From Candidatus Krumholzibacteriia bacterium (GTDB lineage: Bacteria > Krumholzibacteriota > Krumholzibacteriia > Krumholzibacteriales > Krumholzibacteriaceae), in assembly GCA_025453655.1 (NCBI GenBank), contig JALOPX010000005.1:1-37483 (forward strand): DNA of 37,483 nucleotides. The letters run 5' to 3'. Below the pieces are notes generated by a model. That model was not told where the DNA came from. It did no database searches and saw nothing but the letters and a program-made list of their open reading frames with translations. How positions within the stretch are numbered: position 1 is the stretch's first letter; the number at the start of each line of letters is the position of its first letter. This document shows positions 2,846 through 10,520 of this stretch, piece after piece. The position numbers were made by a program, and so were the translations under genes.

Positions 2846-5266
2846 ATGAATCGACGACCCGCTCTTGTCGTATTGACCGCCGTTATCGCTCTGATTATCG
2901 CCGCGGCGCCGGCATCGGCCTACTGGACGACCAACGGTATCGCCGCATGCGCGGCCTTTCTGGGCCAGGAAGTGCCGCAACTCGTCTCCGACGGGGCGGG
3001 AGGGACCATTGTAACCTGGCGGGACGAGCGCGGAGGCAGTTACGACATCTATGCCCAGCACATCAACGCGGCCGGGGTGCCTGTCTGGGCGTCCGACGGG
3101 GTGGCGATCTGCACCGACATCAACTGGCAGAACAACCCGGCAATCGTTTCAGACGGAGCGGGCGGGGCGATCATTGCCTGGCAGGATAACCGCGGGGGAT
3201 ATTACGACATCTATGCCCAGAGGGTCAGCGCTTCCGGCGCGATCCTGTGGATGGAGGACGGGCAGGTTATCTGTTCCGCCGATGGAGACCAGTCGCTCCC
3301 GCAGATCGAAACCGACGCGGCTGGCGGCGCGATCATTGCGTGGCTGGACAACCGAAGCATGAGCGAAACCGATATCTACGCCCAGCGAATCAATGCCGCA
3401 GGAGCCGTTCAATGGACGTGGGACGGAGTCGCGGTCTGCACAGCCTCAAACGGCCAGTACGATCAGAAGCTGATCCCGGACGGGGCGGGCGGGGCGATCA
3501 TCTCTTGGGACGATTTTCGTGGCGGAAGCAACTTCGACATCTACGCGCAGCGGATGAACGGTTCGGGCACTCCCCTTTGGACCGCGAACGGCGTCGCCAT
3601 CTGCGCTAGAGCGGGCACGCAGATGTTCCCCGCGCTTGCAACGGATGGAGCCGGCGGGGCGATAGTAGCATGGTTCGATTCCCGTCTCGGTTATTACGAT
3701 ATCTACGCGCAAAGCGTGAACGCGTCCGGAGCGGTTCAATGGACAGTGAACGGGATCGCGGTTTGCAACGCGGCCATGGATCAGACATACATCTCGGCGG
3801 TATCGGACGACGCCGGCGGCGCGATACTGACGTGGATGGACGCACGAAGCGGCGCCGGGTTCGACGTCTACGCGCAAAGACTCAACCCGGCCGGCGTCGC
3901 TCAATGGACGGCGAACGGCGTGGCGCTCAGCACGGCTTCGTTGGACCAGTTCAATGTGCGCCCCGTGAAGGATGGATCCGGCGGGGTGATCGTTGCGTGG
4001 AGCGATCTCAGGAACGGTGGATATGATGTATACGCGCAGTGTGTCAGCGCCTCGGGCGCCGTTCAGTGGACGGCCGACGGAGCCCCCGTCTGTACGTCCG
4101 TCGGCGAACAGGATCAAGTCAGATTTGTTTCGGACGGAGCCGGAGGAGCTATCGCCGCGTGGAGGGATTCGAGGACGGGATCGGCGGACATTTACTGTCA
4201 GAGCGTCGACAGGGAGGGACGGACGGGATTCCTCGCTCCGGATATCTACGCGGTCCGGGATATTCCCGGGGACCAGGGAGGCGCGATATATCTGTCGTGG
4301 TACGCGGCAAGGCCGGACGCCTTCAGGACGGCTGATGTGAACTACTACACGATCTGGCGCGCGATCGATCCGCTCGCCGCCTCGCTCGCAATCGAAAAGG
4401 GCGCGAGGTTCCTGGAGGCGCTCGCCGATCTCGATCCGGTATGCGGGCTCCCGGTCGTCCGGCTGGAGAGAATCGGGACCTTGGAATATTTCTGGGAACT
4501 AATCGAATCGCAGGGCGCCTACTACAGGGCGGCCTACGGCAAGCCGGTCGCGACGTTGTTCGACTCCACGGGGGTCAGCGACGAATATCATTACTTCCAG
4601 GTGGTCGCCCACACCTCGGATCCATTCGTTTTCTGGGAATCGGAGGTCGGCAGCGGCCGCTCTGTGGATAATCTCGTTCCCGCGGCTCCGCTGGGGCTCG
4701 AGGGGGAACAGCAGTACCTTCCGGTCGGGCTCGAACTGCAATGGCTCGCGAACGACGAAAGCGATCTCGCCGGGTACGCGATCTATCGCGGAACGAGCGA
4801 GGATTTCGTTCCTGACCCGGCCAGCCTCGTCGCGACGACCTGCGACACCTTCTACGTTGACGGAACATGGAGCTGGGAAGGCGGATATTACTACAAGGTG
4901 GCGGCCGTCGACATACACGAGAACGAAAGCGGGTACGCGCTGCTTTCGCCCGGCCTCATCACCGGGAGCGACGACCCGGTGATGCCCGCGGCGGTCTATC
5001 TGGAACAGAATGTTCCGAACCCATTCAATCCGTCGACGCGTATCGGGTTCGGGCTCGCTGCGCCTGCGAAGGTACGGCTGCGGGTCTACGATGCGGCGGG
5101 GCGCCTGGTGCGCGAGCTGGCGAACGGGATTATGCCCGCCGGGCGACATGTCGAGGAGTGGGACGGAAGAAACGAGGACGGGGTCGCCGCGGCGAGCGGC
5201 GTCTATTTTTATCGCCTGGAGTCGGGCTCCTTCACGGAGACGCGAAAGATGGTCCTGCTTAAGTGA
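2846..5266 (+). CDS. Secreted eight-repeat protein with FlgD/T9SS-like C-terminal domain (paralogue A)
   Basis: An 806-residue exported protein of unknown function. The start follows GGGAGG by about 7 bases and gives a clear signal peptide (VVLTAVIALIIAAAPASA). Residues 27 to about 455 are eight repeats of 52-55 residues with the consensus W-x2-(D/N)G-x2-(I/V)C-x8-Q...DGAGGAIIAW-x-D-x-R-x-G-x2-DIYAQR. The last repeat has DIYCQ instead of DIYAQ. Then come one or two fibronectin-III-like domains (SDLAGYAIYRG, YYYKVAAVD) and a C-terminal module with NVPNPFNPSTRIGFGL, VYDAAGRLVREL and SGVYFYRL, of the FlgD-Ig or type IX sorting class. Repeat length and number suggest an eight-bladed propeller (inference). 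A paralogue of the same layout lies at 17030-19750 on the other strand. Confidence 0.8.
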   Translation: MNRRPALVVLTAVIALIIAAAPASAYWTTNGIAACAAFLGQEVPQLVSDGAGGTIVTWRDERGGSYDIYAQHINAAGVPVWASDGVAICTDINWQNNPAIVSDGAGGAIIAWQDNRGGYYDIYAQRVSASGAILWMEDGQVICSADGDQSLPQIETDAAGGAIIAWLDNRSMSETDIYAQRINAAGAVQWTWDGVAVCTASNGQYDQKLIPDGAGGAIISWDDFRGGSNFDIYAQRMNGSGTPLWTANGVAICARAGTQMFPALATDGAGGAIVAWFDSRLGYYDIYAQSVNASGAVQWTVNGIAVCNAAMDQTYISAVSDDAGGAILTWMDARSGAGFDVYAQRLNPAGVAQWTANGVALSTASLDQFNVRPVKDGSGGVIVAWSDLRNGGYDVYAQCVSASGAVQWTADGAPVCTSVGEQDQVRFVSDGAGGAIAAWRDSRTGSADIYCQSVDREGRTGFLAPDIYAVRDIPGDQGGAIYLSWYAARPDAFRTADVNYYTIWRAIDPLAASLAIEKGARFLEALADLDPVCGLPVVRLERIGTLEYFWELIESQGAYYRAAYGKPVATLFDSTGVSDEYHYFQVVAHTSDPFVFWESEVGSGRSVDNLVPAAPLGLEGEQQYLPVGLELQWLANDESDLAGYAIYRGTSEDFVPDPASLVATTCDTFYVDGTWSWEGGYYYKVAAVDIHENESGYALLSPGLITGSDDPVMPAAVYLEQNVPNPFNPSTRIGFGLAAPAKVRLRVYDAAGRLVRELANGIMPAGRHVEEWDGRNEDGVAAASGVYFYRLESGSFTETRKMVLLK

Positions 5267-7097: not shown

Positions 7098-8411
7098 TCA
7101 CATATTCAGCCGGTGCGTTTTCGCGATCGCGTCGATCTGGTTCCCGGGGACCCCCGCTTCCCCGGCGAAGACGGGCCAGCGCGACACGGCATCCAGGACC
7201 TCTTCGACGAGTTTCTCTCCGCGCTGGATATTCATCTCCCTGCCGACCTTGAGGAGATCCTCCTTCGTGAAATCGTCCCGTTTGCCGTTGATCGACATCT
7301 GGTGCGTGCTGGTCCAAAGCCCGCCGGGATTGTACGCGTACGTCACGTCGAAGGCGGGGGAGAGGCGCCAGCGGCCCTCCCTGTCCATGAGGAAGGCGAT
7401 ATTCTTCGTGTGGTCGTCCTGGTTTCGCGCGGCGACGTTGAACACCATCCGCCTGAAAAGCCGGCCTGCCTCCTCGCTGGAAAGCCTCATCTCGCGCATT
7501 ACGCGGAAGGCGTCCTCGTACGACGCGCCGCCGGCGTCCCGGTAGTCGAGGTGGGCGAGGGCGCACAGCGATTGAAGGTGCAGTTTCCCTCCGCCCGCGG
7601 AGCGGTCGAACCTTCTCGTCATGAAATGGGCGCGGCCTTCTTCCTCGAGGAGGCGGCATTCCGTCATGTCGATCCCGGCCTCCTTTGCCATGAGGTGATA
7701 GGCGTATTCTATGCGGCCGTATCCCGCGGGGTCGCCGAGCGAACGGTCCCTCACCCCGTCGAATTTAAGGATCCAGTAATCGAACCCGTCCGGGGCGTCC
7801 ACCTGGCCCGAGCGGACCTCGCCGGTCTTTTCGTTCAGGGCGATCACCGCCTTGGGGCGATTGCCTCCGGCGGATGTTCCGGTGCGGATGATGTTGAGAA
7901 GCGCGTCGGAAGGGTCCGAGCCGAGATCCGCTCTGAGATTGCTTCGTTCCTCGACGACGGAACGGGCGAGGGCGAGGAGCCTTTCGACTTCGACGGGGAC
8001 CGATTCCTCGAGGGCGGTGTTTATCACAGGCTTGTACTCCAGGGCGCCCATGCCGCGTCGTCCCGTGTAACAGAGCCTCTCCACCGGGCTGAAATCGGTC
8101 GGGTCGCGCCCCTGGGCGGAGAGCCACCTGTCGATCAACGCGTTCCCGAAATTGTCGGGCAGCGAATCGGCGAGCATCCCGGGGAGCCCCTTGAACGTCT
8201 CTTCGCGAAGGGCGCGAAAGGCGAATTGCGTGTTTCCGCGGCGCGCATCGGCGGCCGGCATCTTTATCGGCGAGAGGTCGAGGCCGAGGTCGAGAAATTT
8301 CCTGTCGAATTCGAATGTGGCGAAGCGATCGCGCCCGTTCCACGAGACGGCGCCGACGAGACGATCCCATATCAGGACGTAAGCGATATCGACCCTGTCA
8401 GCCAACTTCAT
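7098..8411 (-). CDS. hipA: HipA-type serine/threonine kinase toxin
   Basis: A 437-residue HipA-family kinase. In E. coli HipA phosphorylates glutamyl-tRNA synthetase and induces persistence; the target here is unknown. Landmarks are the N-terminal subdomain with FSPVERLCYTGRRGMGALEY (107-126), the glycine-rich ATP-binding loop TSAGGNRPKA (179-188, with Ser180 in the region of the regulatory autophosphorylation serine), FDYWILKFD (210-218), the catalytic segment RNQDDHTKN (329-337) and the metal-binding SPAFDV (Asp355). All key residues appear present, so the kinase should be active. The ATG overlaps the hipB stop codon (ATGA, 8408-8411), the usual coupled antitoxin-toxin arrangement. Confidence 0.95.
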   Translation of the reverse strand: MKLADRVDIAYVLIWDRLVGAVSWNGRDRFATFEFDRKFLDLGLDLSPIKMPAADARRGNTQFAFRALREETFKGLPGMLADSLPDNFGNALIDRWLSAQGRDPTDFSPVERLCYTGRRGMGALEYKPVINTALEESVPVEVERLLALARSVVEERSNLRADLGSDPSDALLNIIRTGTSAGGNRPKAVIALNEKTGEVRSGQVDAPDGFDYWILKFDGVRDRSLGDPAGYGRIEYAYHLMAKEAGIDMTECRLLEEEGRAHFMTRRFDRSAGGGKLHLQSLCALAHLDYRDAGGASYEDAFRVMREMRLSSEEAGRLFRRMVFNVAARNQDDHTKNIAFLMDREGRWRLSPAFDVTYAYNPGGLWTSTHQMSINGKRDDFTKEDLLKVGREMNIQRGEKLVEEVLDAVSRWPVFAGEAGVPGNQIDAIAKTHRLNM

Positions 8412-8803
8412 TCCCCCCGGCCGCTCTCCTGCCCGCCTGAACCAGGGGATGTTCGTCCCCTGGAAGCCGGGCCCCGTGATTCCGAATCTCTCGAGGATGA
8501 GCCTCTTGTTCCCGTCGCGCGGCGGCGCTCCCTGCCTTTGAGTTTCGCGAGCTGGAGCGGGCTCGGCCCGGAGTCGGGCAGGAAGGCGTCAAGGTCTTCG
8601 AGTGCCTCCAGGGCGCGAAGCACCTGTATGAGAGCGAGGACCCCGAAGGGCTTGCCTCCCTCGATCTCGCTGATCGTGGAGCGGCTCAGGCCCGAGAGCC
8701 TCGCGAGCTCCTGCTGCGTGATGTTTTTATTGAGCCTCCGGGTTTTCAGGCGTTCGCCGATCTCGCGAAGGATCGCCGGGTCACTCTTGCCGTATATGCT
8801 CAT
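8408..8803 (-). CDS. hipB: HipB-type XRE-family antitoxin and autorepressor
   Basis: A 131-residue DNA-binding antitoxin. Residues 8-65 are a Cro/C1-type helix-turn-helix (ITQQELARLSGLSRSTISEIEGG) followed by VLALIQVLRALEALEDLDAFLP. I chose the ATG at 8803 because AGGAG sits 6 bases upstream; the reading frame stays open for 18 more codons into the AT-rich promoter region and those are not expected to be translated. The C-terminal ~45 residues are a Ser/Arg/Gly-rich low-complexity tail, which could be the flexible region that proteases attack in unstable antitoxins (inference). The gene overlaps hipA by 4 bp. Family knowledge: HipB binds operators in its own promoter and represses hipBA together with HipA. 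Confidence 0.92.
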   Translation of the reverse strand: MSIYGKSDPAILREIGERLKTRRLNKNITQQELARLSGLSRSTISEIEGGKPFGVLALIQVLRALEALEDLDAFLPDSGPSPLQLAKLKGRERRRATGTRGSSSRDSESRGPASRGRTSPGSGGQESGRGE

Positions 8804-8836
8804 AACAACTCCTATATTAGTCAATAACCCCAAATA

Positions 8837-8844
8837 ATAGCTAT
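8837..8844. promoter_or_regulatory. Candidate HipB operator, proximal palindrome
   Basis: ATAGCTAT, a perfect 8-bp palindrome inside the 10-bp AATAGCTATA, which recurs at 8949-8958. It lies about 13-20 bases downstream of the predicted transcription start, a position where a bound repressor would block the promoter. The assignment to HipB is inference. Confidence 0.4.
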
Positions 8845-8863
8845 AATGACTTATCAATACTAC

Positions 8864-8892
8864 ATTATAATAAAATAAAGATCGATTGTCAA
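8864..8892 (-). promoter_or_regulatory. Perfect consensus sigma-70 promoter of hipBA
   Basis: On the minus strand, TTGACA (8892-8887) and TATAAT (8869-8864) are separated by exactly 17 bp, so both hexamers and the spacer match the consensus. Transcription would start near 8857, about 54 bases before the hipB ATG. Such a strong promoter is expected to be held in check, as toxin-antitoxin promoters are by their antitoxin. Confidence 0.85.
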
Positions 8893-8949
8893 TGGCCTGG
8901 CAGGATTATAACATAATATGAATGATATGGCAATCAATATATCTAGTAA

Positions 8950-8957
8950 ATAGCTAT
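8950..8957. promoter_or_regulatory. Candidate HipB operator, distal palindrome
   Basis: Second copy of ATAGCTAT, within AATAGCTATA at 8949-8958, centred 113 bp from the first copy and about 58 bp upstream of the -35 element. Two identical sites flanking the promoter are compatible with cooperative binding or looping. Confidence 0.35.
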
Positions 8958-9212
8958 ATTGTCGGTTATATCAATCATAATTATTGGGATCATTGAGCTT
9001 CAGCGTAGCCAGGCCGGGCCGGGTCTCCTGATGACATGCCTTTCGAACGGTACCTGAATGCTATGGACAATTATCCTTTTTGGATATAAGAATACAGGTA
9101 TAAGGACTCTTTTTCCATCGGCACCTTTCATCCGCCCTTGAACGGGGGACTGTCGGTGTCCGGGGCGGCGTTGGCCGGCGAGCGTCGACGGCGTATCGGG
9201 AAAGGCCGCGAT

Positions 9213-10520
9213 ATGGCAGGCAAATCGGGCGACGGCGATCTCAATGAACTTCACGACGAGAACCTGCGCCTCAAGGCGGCGGTCGAGGAGCTTTCGATCC
9301 TCAACGAAATCTCGACGGCGATCAATTCGGCCCTCTCCCTTGAAAAGATCATCGAGCTGATCGTGCGGAAGTGCGTGAAATATCTCGGCGCCGAACAGGG
9401 AACCGTTACGATCCTCGAAAGGAAGGAGAGGGAGAATCCGTTCGTCACGATGGTCAGGGGGGCCGACAGGAGCACCGGCATCCTGCCCCTTCATCTTGAC
9501 ACTCAGATCACCGGGTGGATGCTCGCGAACAGGGAGCCGCTCGTGATCGACGATCTCGCCCGCGACACGAGATTCAAATCCGTGATGCAGGAGGATAATC
9601 CCGTAAAATCGCTGCTGAGCGTCCCGCTCCTTCTGAAGGGGACGATCATGGGTTCGCTCAACGTCTTCAACAAGCGCGGCAAGACCGGATTCACCGAGTC
9701 GGACAAGAGGCTTCTAAGCATCATAGCGACCCAGTCCGCGCAGGTCATCGAAAACGCCAGGCTCCTCGAAGAGGAGAAGGCCCTCATTTACATGAGGGAG
9801 GAGATGGAGATGGCCTGCAGGATACAGATGGGGCTTCTGCCCGCGAAACCCCCTGAGCTTAAGGGGTATGACATAGCCGGGAAGAGCATCCCGGCAAGGG
9901 CGGTCGGGGGGGATTACTTCGATTTCATAAGCCTCGAGGACGAAAGGGTCGTCTGCTGCCTCGGCGACGTCTCCGGCAAGGGGATGCCGGCCGCACTTCT
10001 GATGTCGAACCTGCAGGCGACATTCAGGGGACAGGACCTCGCGAATCACCGGCCCGAGAAGATCATGCAGAGGTCGAATCTCCTTCTCTTCAGAAGCACC
10101 GATCCTGAGAAGTTCGCCACATTCTTCTTCGGCGTCCTCGACGGCAGGAGGCATACCTTCGAATACTGCAACGCCGGGCACAACCACCCGATCATTTCGT
10201 GCGGCCGGGAATCGCGTCGTCTCGAAAAGAGCGGTCTTATCCTCGGCGCGATCGAGGAGGCCAAATACGAATCGGGGATCGTTGAAATGGCCGGGGGGGA
10301 TGTTCTCACGATCTTTTCCGACGGCATCTCCGAGGCCGTCGATGCCGGCGACGCGGAGTTCGGAGAGGAGAGGATCTGCAGCGTCGTCTCCGGCTGCCGC
10401 GATCTGCCCGCGGCGGGGATAATAGACCACATCGTCTCGGAGGTCCGAAGATTCGCGGGAGACCTGCCCCAGCGTGACGACATGACACTCGTCGTTGTCA
10501 AACGCGCGGCGGCCGGCTGA
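9213..10520 (+). CDS. GAF-domain SpoIIE/RsbU-type serine phosphatase
   Basis: A 435-residue cytoplasmic PP2C-class phosphatase. After a short coiled coil (LNELHDENLRLKAAVEELSIL), a GAF domain spans about residues 35-190 (KYLGAEQGTVTILER; LLSVPLLLKGTIMGSLNVFNK). The SpoIIE/PPM domain spans about 205-432, with the metal-binding VGGDYFDF, CLGDVSGKGMPAALLMS, YCNAGHNHP, TIFSDGISEAVD and QRDDMTLVVVK. All acidic metal ligands are visible. Family knowledge: RsbU-type enzymes dephosphorylate an anti-anti-sigma factor in partner-switching stress pathways; no partner anti-sigma or STAS gene is adjacent. I prefer the ATG at 9213; the frame extends upstream to a TTG at 9138 with no better ribosome site. 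Confidence 0.9.
   Translation: MAGKSGDGDLNELHDENLRLKAAVEELSILNEISTAINSALSLEKIIELIVRKCVKYLGAEQGTVTILERKERENPFVTMVRGADRSTGILPLHLDTQITGWMLANREPLVIDDLARDTRFKSVMQEDNPVKSLLSVPLLLKGTIMGSLNVFNKRGKTGFTESDKRLLSIIATQSAQVIENARLLEEEKALIYMREEMEMACRIQMGLLPAKPPELKGYDIAGKSIPARAVGGDYFDFISLEDERVVCCLGDVSGKGMPAALLMSNLQATFRGQDLANHRPEKIMQRSNLLLFRSTDPEKFATFFFGVLDGRRHTFEYCNAGHNHPIISCGRESRRLEKSGLILGAIEEAKYESGIVEMAGGDVLTIFSDGISEAVDAGDAEFGEERICSVVSGCRDLPAAGIIDHIVSEVRRFAGDLPQRDDMTLVVVKRAAAG

Follow-up and report, generated by a model that had tools for sequence, protein, structure and literature searches.

The AT-rich island upstream of hipB, in the 37,483-base stretch of DNA analyzed here (the window), is best explained as a promoter of a known and ordinary kind, autoregulated by HipB, whose operators are arranged differently from those of E. 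coli. Specifically, its sequence argues, with a probability of about 0.88, for an autoregulated hipBA promoter in which a full-consensus promoter, P1, would be repressed by HipB at three operators, O1, O2, and O3, with HipA probably bridging O2 and O3. The sequences, their conservation, and their spacing are direct observations, from which we infer HipB binding, the start point, HipA bridging, and repression. The window promoter is itself ordinary and well explained; what goes beyond the ordinary is a pair of sites 40–41 bp apart that is found family-wide with changing operator sequence.

The hipB gene (8408–8803, minus strand; ATG at 8803–8801) encodes a predicted antitoxin and repressor of 131 residues with a Pfam HTH_3 domain (E = 4.6e-9), and direct reading of the sequence places a Shine-Dalgarno–like AGGAG ahead of it, at 8809–8813 on the same strand. 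This HTH antitoxin gene lies directly ahead of hipA (7098–8411, minus strand), with a 4-bp overlap between hipB (8803–8408) and hipA (8411–7098). The 437-residue hipA product is by sequence a HipA-family kinase toxin (Pfam HipA_C, 6.1e-52; Couple_hipA, 5.2e-17) and is 24% identical to E. coli HipA. In the alignment, the E. coli DGHxKN, (F)YD, and Ser-loop elements, which we take to hold the catalytic residues, correspond to DDHTKN, FD, and TSAGG in the window HipA. The gene order, the HipA domains with their kinase residues, and the palindromic candidate operators at the module's own promoter are those of a predicted HipBA module. The open frame of hipA extends 59 codons beyond its ATG on the 5′ side (496 residues in all, compared with 437). 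The window HipB has a long Arg/Gly/Ser-rich tail (8408–8540, minus strand) that ends in ...SGRGE, without the terminal tryptophan kept by many relatives; that residue is also missing from the HipB of several relatives, for example L016, L019, L045, L047, and L048. In the window, these features may reflect a shifted frame or an unusual tail. Excerpts of PMC3376134 term the C-terminal tryptophan of HipB universally conserved.

As the original prediction had stated, the island is set apart by composition (GC 0.277 at 8805–8995, compared with 0.602 for the window), and a scan of the whole window found 190-bp stretches with a GC content of at most 0.36 solely there. It contains P1 (8864–8892, minus strand), with TTGACA at 8892–8887, a 17-nt spacer, and TATAAT at 8869–8864, so that the claim of a flawless consensus is confirmed at 12 of 12 positions. 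P1 would drive hipB-hipA (8803–7098, minus strand). Such promoters are uncommon, as had been proposed, but this one is not unique: the 2.55-Mb genome assembly (199 contigs) holds 11 perfect σ70-type promoters with 16–18 nt spacers, compared with one match to the reversed pattern. Among the 17 close upstream regions defined below, 11 have a promoter matching at least 9 of 12 positions with its −10 starting 64–66 nt before hipB. The original prediction mentioned neither the conserved dyads described below nor a second promoter-like site on the minus strand, P2 (8905–8933; TTGCCA-17-TATAAT, 11 of 12), conservation of which was not seen in these 17 regions. P2 has an extended −10, with TG ahead of the hexamer, lies 41 bp upstream of P1, and has its −35 within O2. 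Recent acquisition, which had been suggested from the change in composition, is unsupported because the low GC content is limited to the promoter and operators and because relatives are alike in this respect: hipA and hipB have GC contents of 63% and 65%, the same as their neighbors, and the 150 bp upstream of hipB have a mean GC content of 0.32 across 101 regions.

These 101 regions derive from 110 loci with HipA, of which all except L031 and L092 had a HipB match (108 loci) and 106 had at least 150 bp upstream; identical upstream regions were removed. The close set comprises 17 regions with HipB at least 55% identical to the window HipB, the window included, and its members are not mutually independent. 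In the 16 close relatives, HipBs 55–73% identical to that of the window are encoded upstream of HipA. The dyad WTG-Ng-CAW was counted in the 250 bp ahead of hipB in each close region. With g = 14 it occurs 40 times, in 16 of the 17 regions, compared with 8.3 (sd 2.7) in dinucleotide shuffles; a second peak, at g = 11, is the inner half-site repeat within the same motif, and there is no further peak. The N14 peak is also present at greater distance, with 46 sites compared with 18.3 expected where HipB is 45–55% identical (52 regions) and 28 compared with 13.1 expected where it is below 45% identical (32 regions). The upstream regions of the relatives bear out the earlier proposal that this is a control region of hipBA, conserved with it. 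A palindromic 26-bp motif, learned on the 16 relatives without the window (last 160 bp, one site per sequence), reads aTtATGatG.aTATAt.CatCATaAt and reached a log-likelihood of 146, compared with 41–50 in 10 shuffles. An unrestricted motif search converged on GC-rich composition and was discarded.

When this motif is scored over all 37,483 bases, the candidate operators O1, O2, and O3, all given on the minus strand, take ranks 2, 4, and 1, respectively. O1 (8843–8868; ATAATG-N14-CATTAT) scores 12.6 bits (p = 4e-5 per position under an AT-rich null), starts 65 bases before hipB, and overlaps nearly the whole of the P1 −10 together with the expected start point. A site at −64/−65 is present in 13 of the 17 close upstream regions, a scored O1 being missing from the other 4. 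O2 (8915–8940; 8.3 bits, p = 2.9e-4 per position) covers the P2 −35 and is the weakest of the three, yet its distance from O3 is the conserved 41 bp. O3 (8956–8981; 19.9 bits, p = 5e-7 per position) is the best match in the 37 kb, while rank 3 falls to an unrelated coding site at 3039–3064 (9.3 bits), which scores above O2. With up to three mismatches to the family consensus, O3 is the sole match in the 2.55-Mb genome; thus, no other strong target is seen, although weak sites like O1 would escape such a search. None of about 10,000 islands simulated under an AT-rich Markov null gave three positions of at least 8 bits. The bare, unweighted dyad pattern matches at 8846–8865, 8918–8937, and 8959–8978, but it has 30 matches in the window compared with 20 expected, and the case therefore rests on the weighted motif and on clustering.

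The original prediction had HipB binding elsewhere, at two ATAGCTAT palindromes, one just past the start point and the other upstream of the −35, a version that we now consider very unlikely. The repeat that it described, AATAGCTATA, does occur at 8836–8845 and 8949–8958, but the true palindrome is only the ATAGCTAT inside it, at 8837–8844 (box 1) and 8950–8957 (box 2). The two copies frame the promoter, the GC-rich window as a whole would be expected to contain 0.12 copies rather than two, and four gammaproteobacterial regions (class H of the helix classes described below) have an operator consensus, TTAATAGcTgaatattcAgCTATTAA, that contains AATAGCT. However, class H HipBs have another recognition helix, of the STIKGLE type, and the boxes did not hold up as key elements when their conservation was checked where hipBA is conserved: they are absent from 16 of 16 close relatives, the outcome that the original prediction had itself named as speaking against it, and ATAGCTAT was rejected as a conserved site. 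Across all hipB upstream regions the boxes occur in 3 of 101 (the window, L091, and L098), compared with 0.73 in shuffles. Roughly one simulated island in five also has repeats of this size, with a 10-mer repeat in 23% and a perfect 8-bp palindrome occurring twice in 21% of 5,000 first-order Markov islands of 191 bases. Both boxes fall within a direct repeat of 28 nt whose copies are 71% identical. Box 1 adjoins the downstream, hipB-side edge of O1 and box 2 that of O3, so the boxes lie 113 bp apart, just as these operators do, and it is because of these adjoining edges that they seemed significant. A misleading pair of palindromes is replaced by a testable set of operators.

Under HipB autoregulation, RNA polymerase would use the full-consensus P1, and HipB dimers would bind the three 26-bp imperfect palindromes, with a consensus of roughly WTnATG-N14-CATnAW. 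Because O1 overlaps both the −10 of P1 and its expected start point, a dimer bound there would block polymerase. A dimer at O2 would cover the P2 −35. O3 is 41 bp upstream of O2, a distance of about four helical turns that places the two sites on roughly one face of the helix. On the model of E. coli, O2 and O3 are probably bridged by HipA attached to neighboring HipB dimers, which would make repression cooperative and dependent on the toxin–antitoxin ratio. A strong promoter would in this way be kept tightly shut and would open when HipB drops. HipA–HipA contact across operators was reportedly described by Schumacher in 2015. Excerpts of PMC7029023 also mention such contact.

The centers of O2 and O3 are 41 bp apart, and a pair at 40–41 bp is found in 15 of the 17 close regions, being missing from L018 and L044; the O1–O2 distance is variable, at 72 bp here and 37–61 bp in the other regions with all three sites. 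The same spacing emerges with no motif model. Exact 6-mer repeats at lag 41 are present in 43 of the 101 hipB upstream regions, the other 58 having none, compared with 6.3 (sd 2.1) in shuffles; lag 40 gave 21 compared with 6.2, and the next best lag reached a z of 4.6. Among regions with HipB below 55% identity, 36 of 84 have the lag-41 repeat. In a hold-out set from plasmids and viral contigs it was found in 11 of 20 regions compared with 0.85 expected; the set includes two nearly identical loci, L125 and L126, as well as L163, whose upstream end matches that of one of the initial regions. The hold-out consists of 14 plasmid loci and 6 of 6 viral loci; for the plasmids, 15 of 40 listed records were taken, with obvious duplicates avoided, and L170 was dropped as near-identical to L169. 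At G015:C35:884-2248 (L016, L161), a 41-bp pair lies at −154/−113, no −10 proximal site was scored, and HipB is without the final tryptophan.

The operator sequence differs with the recognition helix of HipB. Eight helix classes were drawn by hand after the helix table had been viewed, with 74 memberships among the 101 regions, L067 counted twice; regions outside the classes were used solely in the motif-free lag test. The classes differ in operator core (for example, AGCC...GGCT, CGCCA...TGGCG, and ATGTT...AACAT) and have AT-rich edges in common, and 47 of the 87 distances between neighboring sites in these classes are 40–41 bp. In a leave-one-out test of seven class motifs, class H having fallen to one member under a stricter pattern, gains over shuffles were 10.9–25.7 bits within a motif's own class and mostly low between classes, with A/B, C/H, and D/F as related blocks. 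Because the operator core shifts with the recognition-helix class, the comparison suggests that it is HipB that reads the conserved sites. On balance, we also lean toward a broader reading, in which array geometry (the 40–41-bp pair, usually with a −10 site) is steadier than the helix-dependent sequence throughout a large, mobile HipBA lineage that spans several phyla. The likely constraint would be the fixed size of two HipB dimers bridged by HipA, and the 41-bp pair may thus act as a physical sensor of the toxin–antitoxin ratio. The literature searched, which lies outside the key structure papers, contained no 40–41-bp operator pair and no operator classes across HipB families. The dyad class together with the 40–41-bp pair provides a simple rule for locating HipB sites ahead of hipBA in genomes that lack experiments, and conserved geometry set against variable sequence makes HipA bridging of neighboring HipB dimers testable by changes in spacing.

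It appears improbable that the dyads are instead the site of another regulator or an architectural protein, whether an IHF-like factor or one that controls the divergent phosphatase gene, with HipB binding elsewhere. The island does lie 5′ of a divergent GAF-SpoIIE phosphatase gene (9213–10520) as well, and an IHF site upstream of E. coli hipBA, described in excerpts of PMC3376134, counts in favor of such a protein. However, the motif accompanies hipB across phyla and its core tracks the HipB recognition helix, the phosphatase gene has its own promoter-like site (9064–9093), and the six best phosphatase homologs in same-family genomes (L151–L156) have no hipBA in the ~4 kb fetched upstream. 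Scarcely credible is a plain AT-rich promoter island in which low complexity and repeated −10-like words would produce the dyads and their spacing, for although the GC content is 28% and TATAAT-like words are prone to palindromes, the spacing peaks (14 and lag 41) stand alone against composition-preserving shuffles, and no simulated island reproduced the three scored positions.

HipB autoregulation at three operators can be compared with known systems. As in E. coli K-12 hipBA, several palindromic sites lie over and upstream of the promoter, and an HTH antitoxin precedes the HipA kinase. Excerpts of PMC3376134 and PMC3920265 describe cooperative repression by E. coli HipB at four TATCCN8GGATA sites, with the DNA bent by 70 degrees. 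The E. coli K-12 centers are 28, 39, and 28 bp apart at −125.5 to −30.5, whereas those here span −165.5 to −52.5 with 41 and 72 bp between them; the 41-bp pair comes nearest to the middle E. coli gap (39 bp), yet the layout is different, and with these E. coli spacings the analogy for the HipA bridge is not exact. The E. coli–type pattern TATCC-N8-GGATA, with up to two mismatches, has 10 matches in the window compared with 14.1 expected by chance, none of them in the island. Legionella pneumophila HipBST, according to excerpts of PMC10653801, likewise has three upstream sites with O1 on the promoter and a spacing kept between species. However, its sites are of 18 nt with even 53-bp gaps and its toxin is split into HipS and HipT, whereas here the sites are of 26 bp, the spacing is uneven (41/72), and a single HipA of 437 residues contains both domains. 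Caulobacter crescentus hipBA1 and hipBA2, likened here by description only, have an upstream series of inverted repeats in excerpts of PMC7029023, where the authors deem the repeat intervals consistent with the E. coli HipA/HipB/promoter complexes.

HipA relatives were found in 40 of the 98 genomes searched and in 5 of 20 genomes of the family, the window's own genome included in each count. The best are 64–69% identical, similar identity is reached in Deltaproteobacteria and Chloroflexi assemblies, and more distant relatives (below 60% identity) are present in 702 plasmid records. The HipA family is mobile and the hipBA pair does look mobile; mobility gives no date of arrival. In the four same-family hipBA genomes (L158–L161), no selD, yedF, or phosphatase gene adjoins hipBA, and no hipBA was found near the phosphatase homologs mentioned above or near selD-yedF of G015 (L157). 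Thus, hipBA has a location of its own here. An 806-residue repeat protein (2846–5266, plus strand) is encoded ~1.8 kb from hipA, and three of the four same-family hipBA genomes have similar pieces no more than ~3 kb from hipBA (L158, 8608–9000; L159, 6206–8987; L161, 2–658). A Bacteroidota plasmid, L176, has two tandem HTH-HipA pairs, at 889–2478 and 2888–3072, and Bacteroides plasmids related to it have three matching places per record.
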